Shown here: positions 41,147 through 46,247 of the stretch, piece by piece
Layout: each line of letters opens with the position of its first letter
Numbering within the stretch: the stretch's first letter is position 1
Source of the DNA: Candidatus Parcubacteria bacterium
Lineage (GTDB): Bacteria; Patescibacteriota; Patescibacteriia; PEXW01
Assembly: GCA_003597955.1 (NCBI GenBank)
Contig: QZJU01000005.1
Location: 1 to 47,100 of the forward strand
Direction: 5' to 3'
Length of the DNA: 47,100 bases
Notes under the pieces: model-generated
The model's database searches: none
What the model saw: the letters and a program-made list of their open reading frames with translations, nothing else
Told to the model about the DNA's origin: nothing
Position numbers and translations under genes: made by a program

Positions 41147-41155
41147 GCCCGGTGC

Positions 41156-41196
41156 GGTGACAAGACCAGTGCCATAAACCACTCGGCCATCCCACC
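41156..41196 (-). pseudogene. 5'-half tRNA-Ser(UGA)-like fragment, broken in the anticodon
   Basis: GGTGGGATGGCCGAGTGGTTTATGGCACTGGTCTTG|TCACC. Confidence 0.7.
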
Positions 41197-41263
41197 ATGA
41201 GATTATTGTTTTCCCGGCGAAGCCGCCAGCCTTGCCGGCTAGGCAGGGACCCGGCTCTGCCGG

Positions 41264-41299
41264 GCAGACCGTCACTTTCAAACACTCAGGCACGTCTCC
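41264..41299 (-). pseudogene. 5'-half tRNA-Ser(GCU)-like fragment, broken in the anticodon
   Basis: GGAGACGTGCCTGAGTGTTTGAAAGTGACGGTCTGC|CCGG. Confidence 0.65.
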
Positions 41300-41343
41300 G
41301 TGAATTTAACGAGCCGCCGCCATGAACCATTCCGCCAACTCAC
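41300..41343 (-). pseudogene. 5'-half tRNA-like fragment (Ser(CGA)-like), broken in the anticodon
   Basis: GTGAGTTGGCGGAATGGTTCATGGCGGCGGCTCG|TTAAATTCAC; ends exactly where the next fragment begins. Confidence 0.5.
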
Positions 41344-41475
41344 TTATTTTAATATTGTTCGTTTTGTTGTATCGCAAAACTCTACTTACAACCTACAGGA
41401 AAAGCCAAAGGGTAGTCAAAAGACTTACTTTTAGAGGTAAGCCTTAAAACCAGAGTTTTAATTTAATCGTTTAGT

Positions 41476-42273
41476 TTATGCGGAACGGTTTCTAAAAATA
41501 TAAGACGCCGTCGGAATCGCAAAAACGATAAATCCAGTGCACCAGATAATTGCCAGCCAGGCGTGGTTGCCAACTGGCAGACCGAGCATCAAAGCGCGTA
41601 TTGCTTCAATAACATGAGTGATGGGTTGGTTTTCTGCAAATACCCGCAAACCATGAGGCATACTAGCAGTCGGGACAAACGCCGCGCTTGCAAAAGTGAG
41701 CGGAAAAACGATGAGAAAACTCATCCATTGCACTGCTTCAACGCTTTTTGCCAAGAGTCCCATGATGGCTGACAACCAAGAAAAAGCAAATGTGAATAAC
41801 AAGACAACGCCGACAATAATTAGCCATTCAATAAGTGAAGCCTGTGGTCGGAATCCCATAAGCAAGGCAACTCCAATCATGATTGCCGCAGAAACAACAT
41901 TGCGTGCTAAGTCAGCAGTCACATGGCCAGTCATCACCGCAGAGCTTACCATCGGAAGAGACTTAAAGCGGTCAATGATACCGCGTTTGATGTCTGTTGC
42001 GACGCTCAATGACGTGGTGGTTGCGCCAAACGCAGCCATTTGGATTAAAATGCCGGGCACAAGATAGTTGATGTACTTAATCCCACTGGTTTCAATGGCT
42101 CCGCCAAACACATAACCAAACAACAACATGAACATAACCGGCTGAATCGTCAGTCCCAAGAGTTGGTCAGGATTTTTAATGATGTGCTTTAAGCTGCGGA
42201 CTATGAGAATGCTGGTATCAGCTAAAGCGAGATACAATCCAGAATGTTTTTCTGTATGAAGTTCCTGCTGCAT
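41476..42273 (-). CDS. ABC-2 type permease (DrrB-like)
   Basis: Six hydrophobic segments; YLVPGILIQMAAFGATTTSLSVATDIKRGIIDRFKSLPM motif typical of DrrB-like permeases. Confidence 0.88.
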   Translation of the reverse strand: MQQELHTEKHSGLYLALADTSILIVRSLKHIIKNPDQLLGLTIQPVMFMLLFGYVFGGAIETSGIKYINYLVPGILIQMAAFGATTTSLSVATDIKRGIIDRFKSLPMVSSAVMTGHVTADLARNVVSAAIMIGVALLMGFRPQASLIEWLIIVGVVLLFTFAFSWLSAIMGLLAKSVEAVQWMSFLIVFPLTFASAAFVPTASMPHGLRVFAENQPITHVIEAIRALMLGLPVGNHAWLAIIWCTGFIVFAIPTASYIFRNRSA

Positions 42274-42277
42274 AGGA

Positions 42278-43249
42278 TTATTTCTTTTTTTCTACTTTTT
42301 CTTCTTCTTTTGCGACCTTGTGGCCGGTAAAATGCATAAACACATCATCAAGCGTCGGCTTATGAACAGACATGGCATCAATTTCTATTTTGGCAGCGCT
42401 TAATTTGTCTAGTACATTTTTTATTTCATTGACGCTCCCACCGGTGGGAACGCTGACGCTTCGCTCTTCTGTATTTTTTTGCAAACCATCCCGTTGCATA
42501 ATCTGAATCGCTTGTTCGAAATTACTGTTTTGTTCAATCACCATTTCAATTCGTTCCGTTCCAACTCGCCCCTTGAGTTCGCTTGAAGTGCCCTCGGCAA
42601 GAATTTTACCCTGATCGAGAACGGCAATCCGATCGGCAAGCTTGTCAGCTTCATCCAAATATTGTGTGGTAAGCAATATCGTAACGTCTTGTTGTGTGAG
42701 CTTGGTAATGATGTCCCACATGAGCATGCGGCTTCGAGGGTCAAGTCCAGTCGTTGGTTCATCAAGAAAAATAATCGGTGGAGTTGCTATGAGACTTAAG
42801 GCAAGATCAAGCCTGCGGCGCATACCCCCAGAATACGTTTTCACAGGCCGGTTTGCCGCTTCGGTTAGATCAAATTGTTCAAGTAATTCTTGCGCCCGCT
42901 TTTTTATGGCGGCCTTTGGTACATGATACAAACGGCCCATCATCTCTAAATTTTCTCTGCCGTTTAAAAATTCATCCACCGCTGCGTATTGTCCAGTTAA
43001 TCCAATGAGGCTACGGACTTTTTTGGGTTCGTGCGTGACGCTAAAGCCACCAACCATTGCTTCGCCGCCGTCAGGTTTTAAAAGAGTGCTTAAAATGCGA
43101 ATAGTCGTGGTTTTACCGGCACCGTTCGGGCCAAGCAAGGCTAAAATCTCAGCCCTTTTTACAGTCAGATCAATTCCTTTGAGAACTTCCAACTTTTTAA
43201 AAGATTTTTTTAGATTATGGATACTAATTGCGTCAATACTCTCCGGCAT
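42278..43249 (-). CDS. ABC transporter ATP-binding protein (DrrA-like)
   Basis: LLGPNGAGKTTTIRIL, TYSGGMRRRLDLALSL, IIFLDEPTTGLDPRSR, LLTTQYLDEADKLADRI. Confidence 0.95.
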   Translation of the reverse strand: MPESIDAISIHNLKKSFKKLEVLKGIDLTVKRAEILALLGPNGAGKTTTIRILSTLLKPDGGEAMVGGFSVTHEPKKVRSLIGLTGQYAAVDEFLNGRENLEMMGRLYHVPKAAIKKRAQELLEQFDLTEAANRPVKTYSGGMRRRLDLALSLIATPPIIFLDEPTTGLDPRSRMLMWDIITKLTQQDVTILLTTQYLDEADKLADRIAVLDQGKILAEGTSSELKGRVGTERIEMVIEQNSNFEQAIQIMQRDGLQKNTEERSVSVPTGGSVNEIKNVLDKLSAAKIEIDAMSVHKPTLDDVFMHFTGHKVAKEEEKVEKKK

Positions 43250-43461
43250 AGGTTAATATGGAGGTAAATATAAGAACATGCTTAACTATTACTACTTTGG
43301 TGTAGGTTTGGATATTATACGGTTTTTTTGGGGCCTGGCAAGACTAACTGGATTACTGAGGTTTAAAAGCATTTCCGCCCAGGCGCCCCAATGTTCTTTG
43401 GCGCCAAGGCTTTAGCCGTGGGGACTCCACTTAAAAGTTATTAATTTTTTTGACAGAAATA

Positions 43462-43490
43462 AAGACGCTTTCTGTAAAAAAAAGCGTCTT
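43462..43490 (-). terminator. Putative terminator hairpin
   Basis: AAGACGCTTT / AAAGCGTCTT perfect 10-bp stem downstream of the minus-strand gene at 43503-44045. Confidence 0.6.
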
Positions 43491-43502
43491 TTGGCAATGT
43501 GC

Positions 43503-44045
43503 TTACCAGTAAAACTCTTCTAAGTAGCCTTTGTCTTTTTCCCAGGCCACATGACTGAATTTCCAATCCAGAATCTGGGCGCCGTTCTGGTCGCCATTAT
43601 TTTGCAAGTCAGGCGTTGACCACCAGAAAGGGCCGCTTTGGCCAATTTCATAAATTACTATCCGTTTAAGTCCCAAGGTTTGCTGGTTGTTATGGGGATT
43701 TATTCCCGGGTAATTATGCAGCTTGACTGAAGCAAATATTAAAGGTGCGGTTTCGCCGGCTGAAACTATGTGCCGGGCGGCACTGCCGTCTACAAACTCC
43801 AGCTCAACCAGCCGCAAGTATTTGGCGGGCTGTTCCAAGATGGAAACTTGATCAGCCGCTTCAGTTTCAGATGCCTTTCCCATTGAGGCGCCTTGGGACT
43901 TGAGCGTGGATTCGCGATAACAGTTGAGCGAAAGCATTATGAGAATGAATACGGACATCAGCGCGCAACCACCCCAATTTTTGTTTGTTGATTTAAACAC
44001 TTTTAACCTCCAGTTTTGGTTTTTGGTTTTAAAAAAATTTATCAA
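43503..44045 (-). CDS. Hypothetical membrane-anchored/secreted protein
   Basis: Single N-terminal hydrophobic segment (ALMSVFILIMLSLNCY); start codon uncertain. Confidence 0.6.
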   Translation of the reverse strand: MINFFKTKNQNWRLKVFKSTNKNWGGCALMSVFILIMLSLNCYRESTLKSQGASMGKASETEAADQVSILEQPAKYLRLVELEFVDGSAARHIVSAGETAPLIFASVKLHNYPGINPHNNQQTLGLKRIVIYEIGQSGPFWWSTPDLQNNGDQNGAQILDWKFSHVAWEKDKGYLEEFYW

Positions 44046-44084
44046 AAAAGCTTAGCATGAAAAACTAAGCGTGTCAAGGGTAAT

Positions 44085-44113
44085 TTGACCAATATTACAC
44101 CGTAGGCTAGGAT
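44085..44113 (+). promoter_or_regulatory. Putative promoter of the radical SAM unit
   Basis: TTGACC (44085-44090), 17-nt spacer, TAGGAT (44108-44113); SD GGAGGT just before ATG 44164. Confidence 0.55.
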
Positions 44114-44163
44114 ATTATGATTGCAAATAAAGATCGTATTTTGAAAAAATCTTTGGAGGTATA

Positions 44164-45429
44164 ATGTTCATCCGAATTCTTGAAAAACGCATTGGTGATG
44201 ATTTGGCGCTAATTAATTACGCCGCTGAAACCGTCTGCATTCTTGACCAGTCAGGCAGGCAGGTTTGGGAGTATTTCAAAAAAGTTGGGTCAATGGAAGC
44301 AGTCCGTACTGGCGTTGAGGTGCCTTATCATTTGCGCGCCGGTTTCGACACTTTCTGTGACGAACTAACCACATTCCTAGATGGGAATATTCGCCGTCCT
44401 GAATCCGGGACTTCCCTACACACATTTTTTATGCAGCTGCGGGCCCCTTTGGTTGTTGGGTTGGAAATAAATACCGATTGCCAAAATAGGTGCCGCCATT
44501 GCTACAACCCGCTTCGCTCGGAGCTCAAATGCACACCACCACCAAGTGAGCTTCCCCTTCAACTTGTCGAGCAACTTGCAGATGATCTGGATAAGTTAGG
44601 CACGCCGTTCGTCATCATCACAGGAGGTGAACCCACGCTCCATTCACAATTCCTGGAGATCTGCCAGACAATCGCTAAACGGAATATCGCCCTGAAGATC
44701 TTCACCAACGGCAAGTTGCTGACAGAAAAGATGGCTATCCAGCTGCGCCAGAGCAATGTTTTTCTGATCGGATTCACGCTCTTCGGGCACGCGCCGGCAT
44801 CCCATGATTACTTGACCCAGATCCCCGGCTCATTCGAGGAAATCACGACAGGAATTCGCCATGCCCAAGCCGCTGGCCTACCGGTCGATGTCACTTTTTT
44901 CCTGATGAAGCATAATTTCCACGAGCGTGAAGAGATGGCCAAGTTCGCTAAGCAGGAATTTGGCCTCAAACCCTCGTTTTCCTTCTCGCTGACACCGCGG
45001 GAGAACAACGACCTCGAGCCGTTCAAGTTTGAGATTTCTGCAGACCAAATGTCCACCTTCTTCAAGGAATACGGGATCACGCATGACAGCCTGCAGTGCG
45101 GCGGCGAGTCGTATATTCCTTGTACGGCAGGGAAAACACTCATCGCCGTCAAAGCTGACGGCCTGGTAACGCCATGCGTTTCTCTTATGTATCCGGCCGG
45201 TGATCTGAACAAGCAGAGCTTTATCGACATCTGGAACAACTCTCCCGAATTGGCAAAATTCCGCCAGGCCGGTATTGCGTTAATTGACGGATGCAACCAG
45301 TGTGAAATGAACTCGTTCTGTCTGCGCTGCTACGTGAACGCATCTATGCTGGGCGGCAATGTATGGGGAAAAGACCCGCATGCCTGCAAAGTATCGACGG
45401 CTTTACAAAAGTCCAAACGGAATGCATAA
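44164..45429 (+). CDS. PqqD-like RRE / radical SAM / SPASM peptide maturase
   Basis: N-terminal PqqD-like region (INYAAETVCILDQSGRQVWEYFKKVG...FLDG); radical SAM CQNRCRHC; IITGGEPTLH; SPASM Cys cluster (CTAGKTLIAVKADGLVTPCVS...CNQCEMNSFCLRCYVNA...HACK). Confidence 0.88.
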   Translation: MFIRILEKRIGDDLALINYAAETVCILDQSGRQVWEYFKKVGSMEAVRTGVEVPYHLRAGFDTFCDELTTFLDGNIRRPESGTSLHTFFMQLRAPLVVGLEINTDCQNRCRHCYNPLRSELKCTPPPSELPLQLVEQLADDLDKLGTPFVIITGGEPTLHSQFLEICQTIAKRNIALKIFTNGKLLTEKMAIQLRQSNVFLIGFTLFGHAPASHDYLTQIPGSFEEITTGIRHAQAAGLPVDVTFFLMKHNFHEREEMAKFAKQEFGLKPSFSFSLTPRENNDLEPFKFEISADQMSTFFKEYGITHDSLQCGGESYIPCTAGKTLIAVKADGLVTPCVSLMYPAGDLNKQSFIDIWNNSPELAKFRQAGIALIDGCNQCEMNSFCLRCYVNASMLGGNVWGKDPHACKVSTALQKSKRNA

Positions 45430-45454
45430 TGTAATCAAATAAAAATAGCCCACT

Positions 45455-45467
45455 AAGGAGGTGATCC
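45455..45467 (+). promoter_or_regulatory. Very strong Shine-Dalgarno (AAGGAGGTGATCC)
   Basis: 13-nt match to the complement of the canonical bacterial 16S rRNA 3' tail, upstream of the short ORF at 45475. Confidence 0.7.
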
Positions 45468-45474
45468 TAACTTC

Positions 45475-45588
45475 ATGAAACTGACGGATAAACCGACGGT
45501 CAAGGTACTCAGTACCGCATCCAGTTTCTGTCGCGAACCGCGGTATCAGGCTCCGTTCTGGAGAGTATTCTGTAAGATCGATCGCTAG
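45475..45588 (+). CDS. Candidate RiPP precursor peptide (37 aa)
   Basis: ATG...TAG gives MKLTDKPTVKVLSTASSFCREPRYQAPFWRVFCKIDR; 45 nt after the radical SAM stop, strong SD, followed by a terminator. Too short for the supplied ORF track. Confidence 0.65.
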   Translation: MKLTDKPTVKVLSTASSFCREPRYQAPFWRVFCKIDR

Positions 45589-45613
45589 ACCATAAAACAC
45601 CTAGCAAAAACAC

Positions 45614-45640
45614 AAGTGGCTCATCTGAGCCACTTTTTAT
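45614..45640 (+). terminator. Rho-independent terminator
   Basis: AAGTGGCTCA TC TGAGCCACTTTTTAT. Confidence 0.85.
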
Positions 45641-45684
45641 TTACCCGCTTTTGCCTGAAACCCCAGCCTTCAGACCGAATGGTT

Positions 45685-45999
45685 TCATTGAATTTGCTTC
45701 TTCAGCCAGGCTGAATATTTTTTGTTGGCTTCAACTGTAAGTTTGATAATGCAGGGAGTCGAATAAGGATGAATCTTTTCAACAAGTTTTACAATGTCAC
45801 GGTATTTTTTAGGCACGGTCTTCGCAATGAGTATTACCTCGGTTTCTTCAACAAGTTTGCCTCGCCAATAGTACAAGCTTTTTACTTTAGGATAAATATT
45901 GGCGCAAGCGATTAATTTTTCCTTAAGCAAAAATTTGGCAATCTTTTTGGCGACGCTAGGTGATGGATTGGTTATATAGAGAAATGCGATTTTGGTCAT
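45685..45999 (-). CDS. cutA: CutA1 divalent-ion tolerance family protein
   Basis: KLIACANIYPKVKSLYYWRGKLVEETEVILIAKT...IHPYSTPCII. Confidence 0.93.
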   Translation of the reverse strand: MTKIAFLYITNPSPSVAKKIAKFLLKEKLIACANIYPKVKSLYYWRGKLVEETEVILIAKTVPKKYRDIVKLVEKIHPYSTPCIIKLTVEANKKYSAWLKKQIQ

Positions 46000-46018
46000 G
46001 CTGTGTCGCTTAAATCCC

Positions 46019-46095
46019 TGGTGCGCTCGGCAGGAGTTGAACCTGCGACCTCAAGCTCCGCAAGCTTGCGCTCTATCCAGCTGAGCTACGAGCGC
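46019..46095 (-). tRNA. tRNA-Arg(GCG), with encoded CCA
   Basis: GCGCTCGTAGCTCAGCTGGATAGAGCGCAAGCTTGCGGAGCTTGAGGTCGCAGGTTCAACTCCTGCCGAGCGCACCA; all arms pair; anticodon loop TTGCGGA. Confidence 0.93.
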
Positions 46096-46181
46096 GCATA
46101 AATAAGCACTTAATATTTTCGAGTCTTTTTTCTAGATTTAACTTTTTTGTTCTTGTTGCTCACGCCGTAGGCGTAACGGAA

Positions 46182-46194
46182 CTACGAGCGCGCA
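46182..46194 (-). repeat. 13-nt duplicate of the tRNA-Arg 5' end
   Basis: ctacgagcgcgca at 46182-46194 repeats 46086-46098 exactly, offset 96 bp. Confidence 0.7.
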
Positions 46195-46247
46195 AAATCT
46201 AGCCTTACTTTAGTATCATAGCTCAAAAATTCTCGCAAGGCTTCAAT

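Follow-up and report, generated by a model that had tools for sequence, protein, structure and literature searches.

Gene Content of the Locus

The window analyzed here is an entire contig of 47,100 bases, derived from a genome of 0.99 Mb that is 98.5% complete. Its interval between tRNA-Arg and recG holds a tRNA-Ser gene together with genes for an ABC-2 permease, an ATPase, a 180-aa protein, a putative peptide maturase, a short peptide, and CutA. The features discussed below are listed by position.

41148–46018, no strand: extra stretch of about 5 kb, between tRNA-Arg(gcg) and tRNA-Ser/recG, absent from genomes G002 and G004
41476–42273, reverse strand: permease of the ABC-2 type that pairs with the ATPase (Pfam PF01061, 5.9e-33)
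42278–43249, reverse strand: ABC transporter ATPase with a DrrA-like C-terminal domain (Pfam); possible exporter or self-protection
43503–44045, reverse strand: 180-aa protein that is hydrophobic over part of its N terminus, its gene oriented divergently to that of the maturase; no Pfam match
44154–44159, forward strand: Shine-Dalgarno sequence of the maturase gene (TTTGGAGGTATAATG), assigned from its sequence and by contrast with native genes
44164–45429, forward strand: maturase gene, 421 aa, predicted RRE-radical SAM-SPASM peptide maturase
45455–45467, forward strand: AAGGAGGTGATCC, 13 nt, upstream of the peptide ORF and complementary to the organism's own 16S rRNA 3' end
45475–45588, forward strand: candidate RiPP precursor MKLTDKPTVKVLSTASSFCREPRYQAPFWRVFCKIDR, 37 aa, based on the ORF, on shuffled sequences, and on analogous peptides adjoining the maturases of relatives
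45475–45522, forward strand: putative leader MKLTDKPTVKVLSTAS with a P-x-hydrophobic motif (P7, V9); putative boundary
45523–45585, forward strand: putative core SFCREPRYQAPFWRVFCKIDR with C19 and C33, and F18, Y24, F28, W29, and F32
45614–45635, no strand: strong intrinsic terminator with a 9-bp stem, usable on either strand (z −4.9)

The maturase gene and the 37-aa ORF lie on one strand and in one frame, with two TAA codons and 45 nt between them. Both ORFs, the 13-mer, the length of the gap, and the terminator were all found where the preliminary description had placed them. A promoter-like sequence, TTGACC-17-TAGGAT, had also been noted, and it is present. Because it matches at 9 of 12 positions and the region is no better than background (8 matches versus 3.9 ± 2.7 expected), it was not counted as evidence.

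Domain Structure and Fold of the Maturase

The maturase matches Radical_SAM (PF04055, 8e-23) and SPASM (PF13186, 4e-11) in Pfam, which bears out the earlier assignment of the gene to the radical SAM/SPASM enzymes. In an alignment of 63 rows, the cysteines of the CxxxCxxC motif (C106, C110, and C113) are invariant, as are six SPASM cysteines (C320, C338, C377, C380, C386, and C389), and C408 is nearly so. Residues 1–73 constitute a predicted RRE-like domain, for which AlphaFold gives a b3a3 arrangement (three strands plus three helices, residues 5–73); as modeled, this is the layout of the PqqD/RRE winged-helix domain. The model built with the 63-row alignment has a mean pLDDT of 82.8, with the N-terminal domain mostly at about 89–95, whereas prediction from the single sequence gave a pLDDT of 34. 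The PqqD-like domain previously claimed for this protein is supported by the predicted fold and by Pfam PqqD matches at the corresponding position in four relatives (L058, L059, L062, and L095), but not by a PqqD match in a Pfam search of the maturase itself.

The best PDB matches of the model, as determined by Foldseek, are CteB (4e-16), followed by SkfB and SuiB, all of which are RiPP maturases that carry an RRE-type N-terminal domain. CteB, the SCIFF ranthipeptide maturase (PDB 5why and 5wgg), likewise combines an N-terminal RRE with radical SAM and SPASM domains and is paired with a short Cys-containing precursor, although its identity to the maturase described here is only about 14%. The SCIFF precursor has six Cys in ~45 residues, whereas the putative core here has two (C-x13-C), and SCIFF identity was rejected on this difference and because no equivalog maturase reached its cut-off. 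The sactipeptide maturases SkfB and AlbA have the RRE-rSAM-SPASM architecture in common with the maturase, and SkfB was recovered by both sequence and fold; however, SkfB is only 19% identical and there is no equivalog match, and assignment to the sactipeptide enzymes (AlbA, SkfB, or StsB type) was rejected because no such model reached its cut-off. SuiB, which introduces the C-C crosslink of streptide, has a similar RRE-rSAM-SPASM fold, but the KxxxW core is absent from the 37-aa peptide.

Among the NCBIfam equivalogs, none reached its cut-off for the maturase (AhbD, 120 of 500 bits; MftC, 79 of 265; PqqE, 63 of 381; StsB, 59 of 625). The curated scores for PQQ, mycofactocin, and AhbD/NirJ heme enzymes were below their cut-offs, and these identities were rejected. 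No NCBIfam family acting on a non-peptide substrate was found at cut-off either, an assignment that the preliminary description had named as speaking against a peptide maturase.

Relatives of the Maturase and Their Neighboring Peptides

No close maturase ortholog was found by 8-mer scans of genome and viral contig collections or in 57 relatives, and none was present in samples of 380 genomes of the phylum and 381 of the class. In a phylogenetic tree, the maturase forms a long branch (2.07) of unsure position that does not group with L058 and L059. These two, from Patescibacteria UBA6257 and Parcubacteria Athens0714_26, respectively, are the nearest relatives together with L160, from the class shared with the source genome, at about 29–32% identity; all three come from small genomes.

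Directly 3' of the maturase gene, each of these three loci has an SD-led ORF of 39–40 aa, namely MKKKKQYVSPKIKAKGNTKHLIVGAIHKSCPSSSARVKKG in L058, MKKKNQYVAPATKLRADTTQVVVAATHKGCSSTASRNKKG in L059, and MAKGSYAPPRANMKGDTKSLVVAAIHKGCPSSSARIKKG in L160. The three maturases are 54–77% identical to each other and their downstream peptides 46–59%, with an HKxC core common to the peptides, which indicates conservation of the gene arrangement as well as of the core among these loci. The likeness to the locus described here lies in the order of maturase and short SD-led peptide and in a leader containing P. On the other hand, their core (HKxC[PS]S..R.KKG) has one Cys, and all three loci have a further gene that converges on the maturase-peptide pair (L058:4153–5094, L059:4486–5400, and L160:386–1300), encoding a transglutaminase-core protein in L058 and L059.

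Between the 37-aa peptide and the peptides of relatives, only M1 and P7 are invariant, and the remaining similarity is at the level of shuffled sequences. Of the YxxPxLxxxG leader motif known from lasso-type RREs, the 37-aa peptide has only P7 and V9, whereas L058 has YVSPKIKAKG.

Such peptides also recur beside the maturases of distant relatives. With the source locus excluded and control genes taken from the relatives' own loci, a short SD-led ORF adjoins the maturase in 20 of the 63 relatives that have an N-terminal extension, compared to 26 of the 245 controls (p = 9e-5). ORFs that also combine a P-x-hydrophobic leader with a Cys further on occur in 12 of the 63 versus 5 of the 245 (p = 6e-6), and both p-values are indicative only because the rows are mutually related and the motif was picked after some of the peptides had been seen. 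Among the loci matched in a class-wide search, each one that was read by eye showed a short SD-led ORF with Cys next to the maturase gene or immediately ahead of it.

Predicted Modification of the Peptide

The predicted fold, the domain architecture, and the gene neighborhood of relatives all support the reading that the locus is a radical SAM/SPASM RiPP cassette, and we consider it quite likely that it consists of a maturase and an adjacent 37-residue precursor with a predicted crosslinked product. As is characteristic of radical SAM/SPASM RiPP systems, a short candidate precursor ORF with a putative leader and a modifiable core is adjacent to the maturase gene.

In the proposed pathway, the RRE-like N-terminal domain, as suggested by its predicted fold, would bind the leader around the P-x-hydrophobic motif at P7/V9. 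An AlphaFold prediction of a maturase-peptide fusion, made by reading through the TAA codons and with no paired alignment, left the peptide disordered (pLDDT 23–46) with no sign of docking. The CxxxCxxC cluster would cleave SAM and, to judge from the enzyme family, the auxiliary clusters of the SPASM domain would support at least one crosslink in the core. The crosslinks would most likely be one or more thioethers that join Cys19, Cys33, or both to some other residue, because Cys is present in nearly all candidate cores of relatives and because CteB, the nearest solved structure, makes thioethers. Removal of the leader would follow, and then export of the product, for which the ABC transporter of the extra stretch is a possible route.

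A rather doubtful variant, compatible with the cassette reading, would replace the thioethers with C-C or C-O crosslinks at aromatic residues (F-x-R, F-x-K, and W motifs), giving a cyclophane-like product. The core is rich in aromatics, F18-C-R20, F28-W-R30, and F32-C-K34 each have the form aromatic-x-basic, and the C-C crosslinking enzyme SuiB is among the top fold matches. However, Cys is present in nearly all candidate precursors of relatives and the aromatics are not common to them, and none of the NCBIfam maturases scored at cut-off.

If the cassette reading is correct, a bacterium with less than 1 Mb of DNA retains a dedicated two-gene system for a crosslinked peptide. Such a system would offer a handle on how presumed symbionts affect other cells, and the small enzyme-substrate pair would be suited to in vitro radical SAM chemistry.

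Coding Status of the 37-Residue ORF

A different explanation would accept the maturase as real but have its substrate encoded elsewhere or be something other than a peptide, with the 37-aa ORF having arisen by chance in leader or intergenic sequence. The combination of ORF and Shine-Dalgarno sequence is improbable by chance, as only 7 of 20,000 dinucleotide shuffles of positions 45430–45640 produced an ORF that starts with ATG, spans 37 aa or more, and has GGAGG 3–14 nt upstream. The 13-mer upstream of the ORF occurs only twice in the 0.99-Mb genome, at this site and, in the reverse orientation, at the 16S rRNA 3' end, and is accordingly a perfect complement of the organism's anti-Shine-Dalgarno region. 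No Shine-Dalgarno sequence of this kind was found in the 23 native genes of the contig that were examined, with starts chosen mechanically, while the maturase gene has one. Moreover, analogous peptides adjoin the maturases of relatives, the predicted RRE-like domain indicates a peptide substrate, and the non-peptide families of NCBIfam all scored below cut-off.

Three points speak for a chance frame. A peptide search of the 57 relatives gave only chance-level matches, which leaves the peptide with no homolog there and counts against the cassette reading. The codon usage of the ORF is not coding-like (p = 0.34) and falls within the lowest 5–6% of native 37-codon stretches. This low rank fits a foreign origin, which would blur the coding signal, as well as a non-coding ORF. 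The spacing between GGAGG and ATG is 13 nt, as noted in the preliminary description, with no alternative in-frame start in between; this is long and counts against a peptide cassette. Weighing both sides, we regard a chance frame as unlikely and retain the 37-aa ORF as the candidate precursor.

A structured regulatory RNA or a non-coding, rRNA-derived fragment 3' of the maturase gene is very improbable: the 13-mer is complementary to the 16S 3' end and the region has several short hairpins, but it folds with unremarkable energy (z about +0.5) and an Rfam search of the region gives no match, so the resemblance to rRNA is limited to the 13-mer.

Two observations concern translation signals and rRNA more generally. 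The native gene starts examined are without a clear Shine-Dalgarno sequence, yet the 16S 3' end carries a standard anti-Shine-Dalgarno. At the locus L052 (784–883), shortly after the 16S rRNA, there is an Rfam match to group II intron D1-D4 (36 bits, with a cut-off of 35).

Genomic Setting and Probable Acquisition

In a family-level relative (G002) and a class-level relative (G004), the gene order is membrane protein, tRNA-Arg(gcg), and recG, and the genes of the cassette, the ABC transporter, and CutA are absent. The distance from the tRNA gene to recG is 0.2 kb in G002 and 0.9 kb in G004, compared to about 5–5.2 kb in the source genome. The cassette thus sits beside a tRNA gene in a stretch that both relatives lack. 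To judge from the gene order in these two informative genomes, an insertion appears more likely than two losses, and the cassette, which looks horizontally acquired, was probably gained next to the tRNA-Arg gene. The 5' end of tRNA-Arg is directly repeated (19 nt, 89%) at 46083–46101 and 46179–46197, 96 nt apart, which may reflect past recombination at this gene.

The ABC transporter of the extra stretch may be an exporter of the product. For its ATPase, near relatives offer only matches of 34–36% identity. An ABC exporter common to the maturase loci of relatives was considered and rejected, as the similarity is that of generic ABC proteins.

Distribution in Reduced Genomes

The type of system is known, whereas the pairing of this enzyme with this peptide is new. 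RiPP precursors located beside a maturase gene have been described in the reduced genomes of CPR bacteria for graspetides (PMC8939145), although those loci use ATP-grasp ligase chemistry and the locus described here radical SAM chemistry. Among the titles and abstracts covered by an incomplete set of the literature, no publication on radical SAM/SPASM RiPPs of CPR bacteria was found, and such cassettes appear to be little described in reduced genomes of this kind. The source genome itself is placed with the CPR-like bacteria on account of its size and the nearest named relatives of its maturase. The view that reduced genomes of this type do not typically carry such systems calls for correction, as distantly related radical SAM/SPASM genes with an adjoining short Cys-containing ORF recur in related small genomes, though sporadically. 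A broader reading, which we offer tentatively as possible rather than probable, is that reduced CPR-like genomes harbor scattered and horizontally moving cassettes for unclassified radical SAM/SPASM RiPPs with unrelated cores. The peptide described here would then represent a new aromatic C-x13-C class that plays a part in encounters with host or rival cells.

Two further groups of loci were observed. In small genomes, L038, L037, L004, L046, and L049 form a separate radical SAM/SPASM clade that does not have the long N-terminal domain, and its genes are followed by SD-led, Cys-rich CxC peptides (e.g., MSNPYGYVSLLIGDDQDETVNESVSLACYCHCACACHVTG), which are probably a further RiPP family of reduced genomes. 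In three same-class genomes, a conserved peptide (MKRDWSKFQAKAVVASSEKQNRANMGRPCCGGSCIGGNCKAVPKIANIFK) is located upstream beside radical SAM genes at L003, L161, and L165, and the radical SAM match at L165 contains an internal stop.
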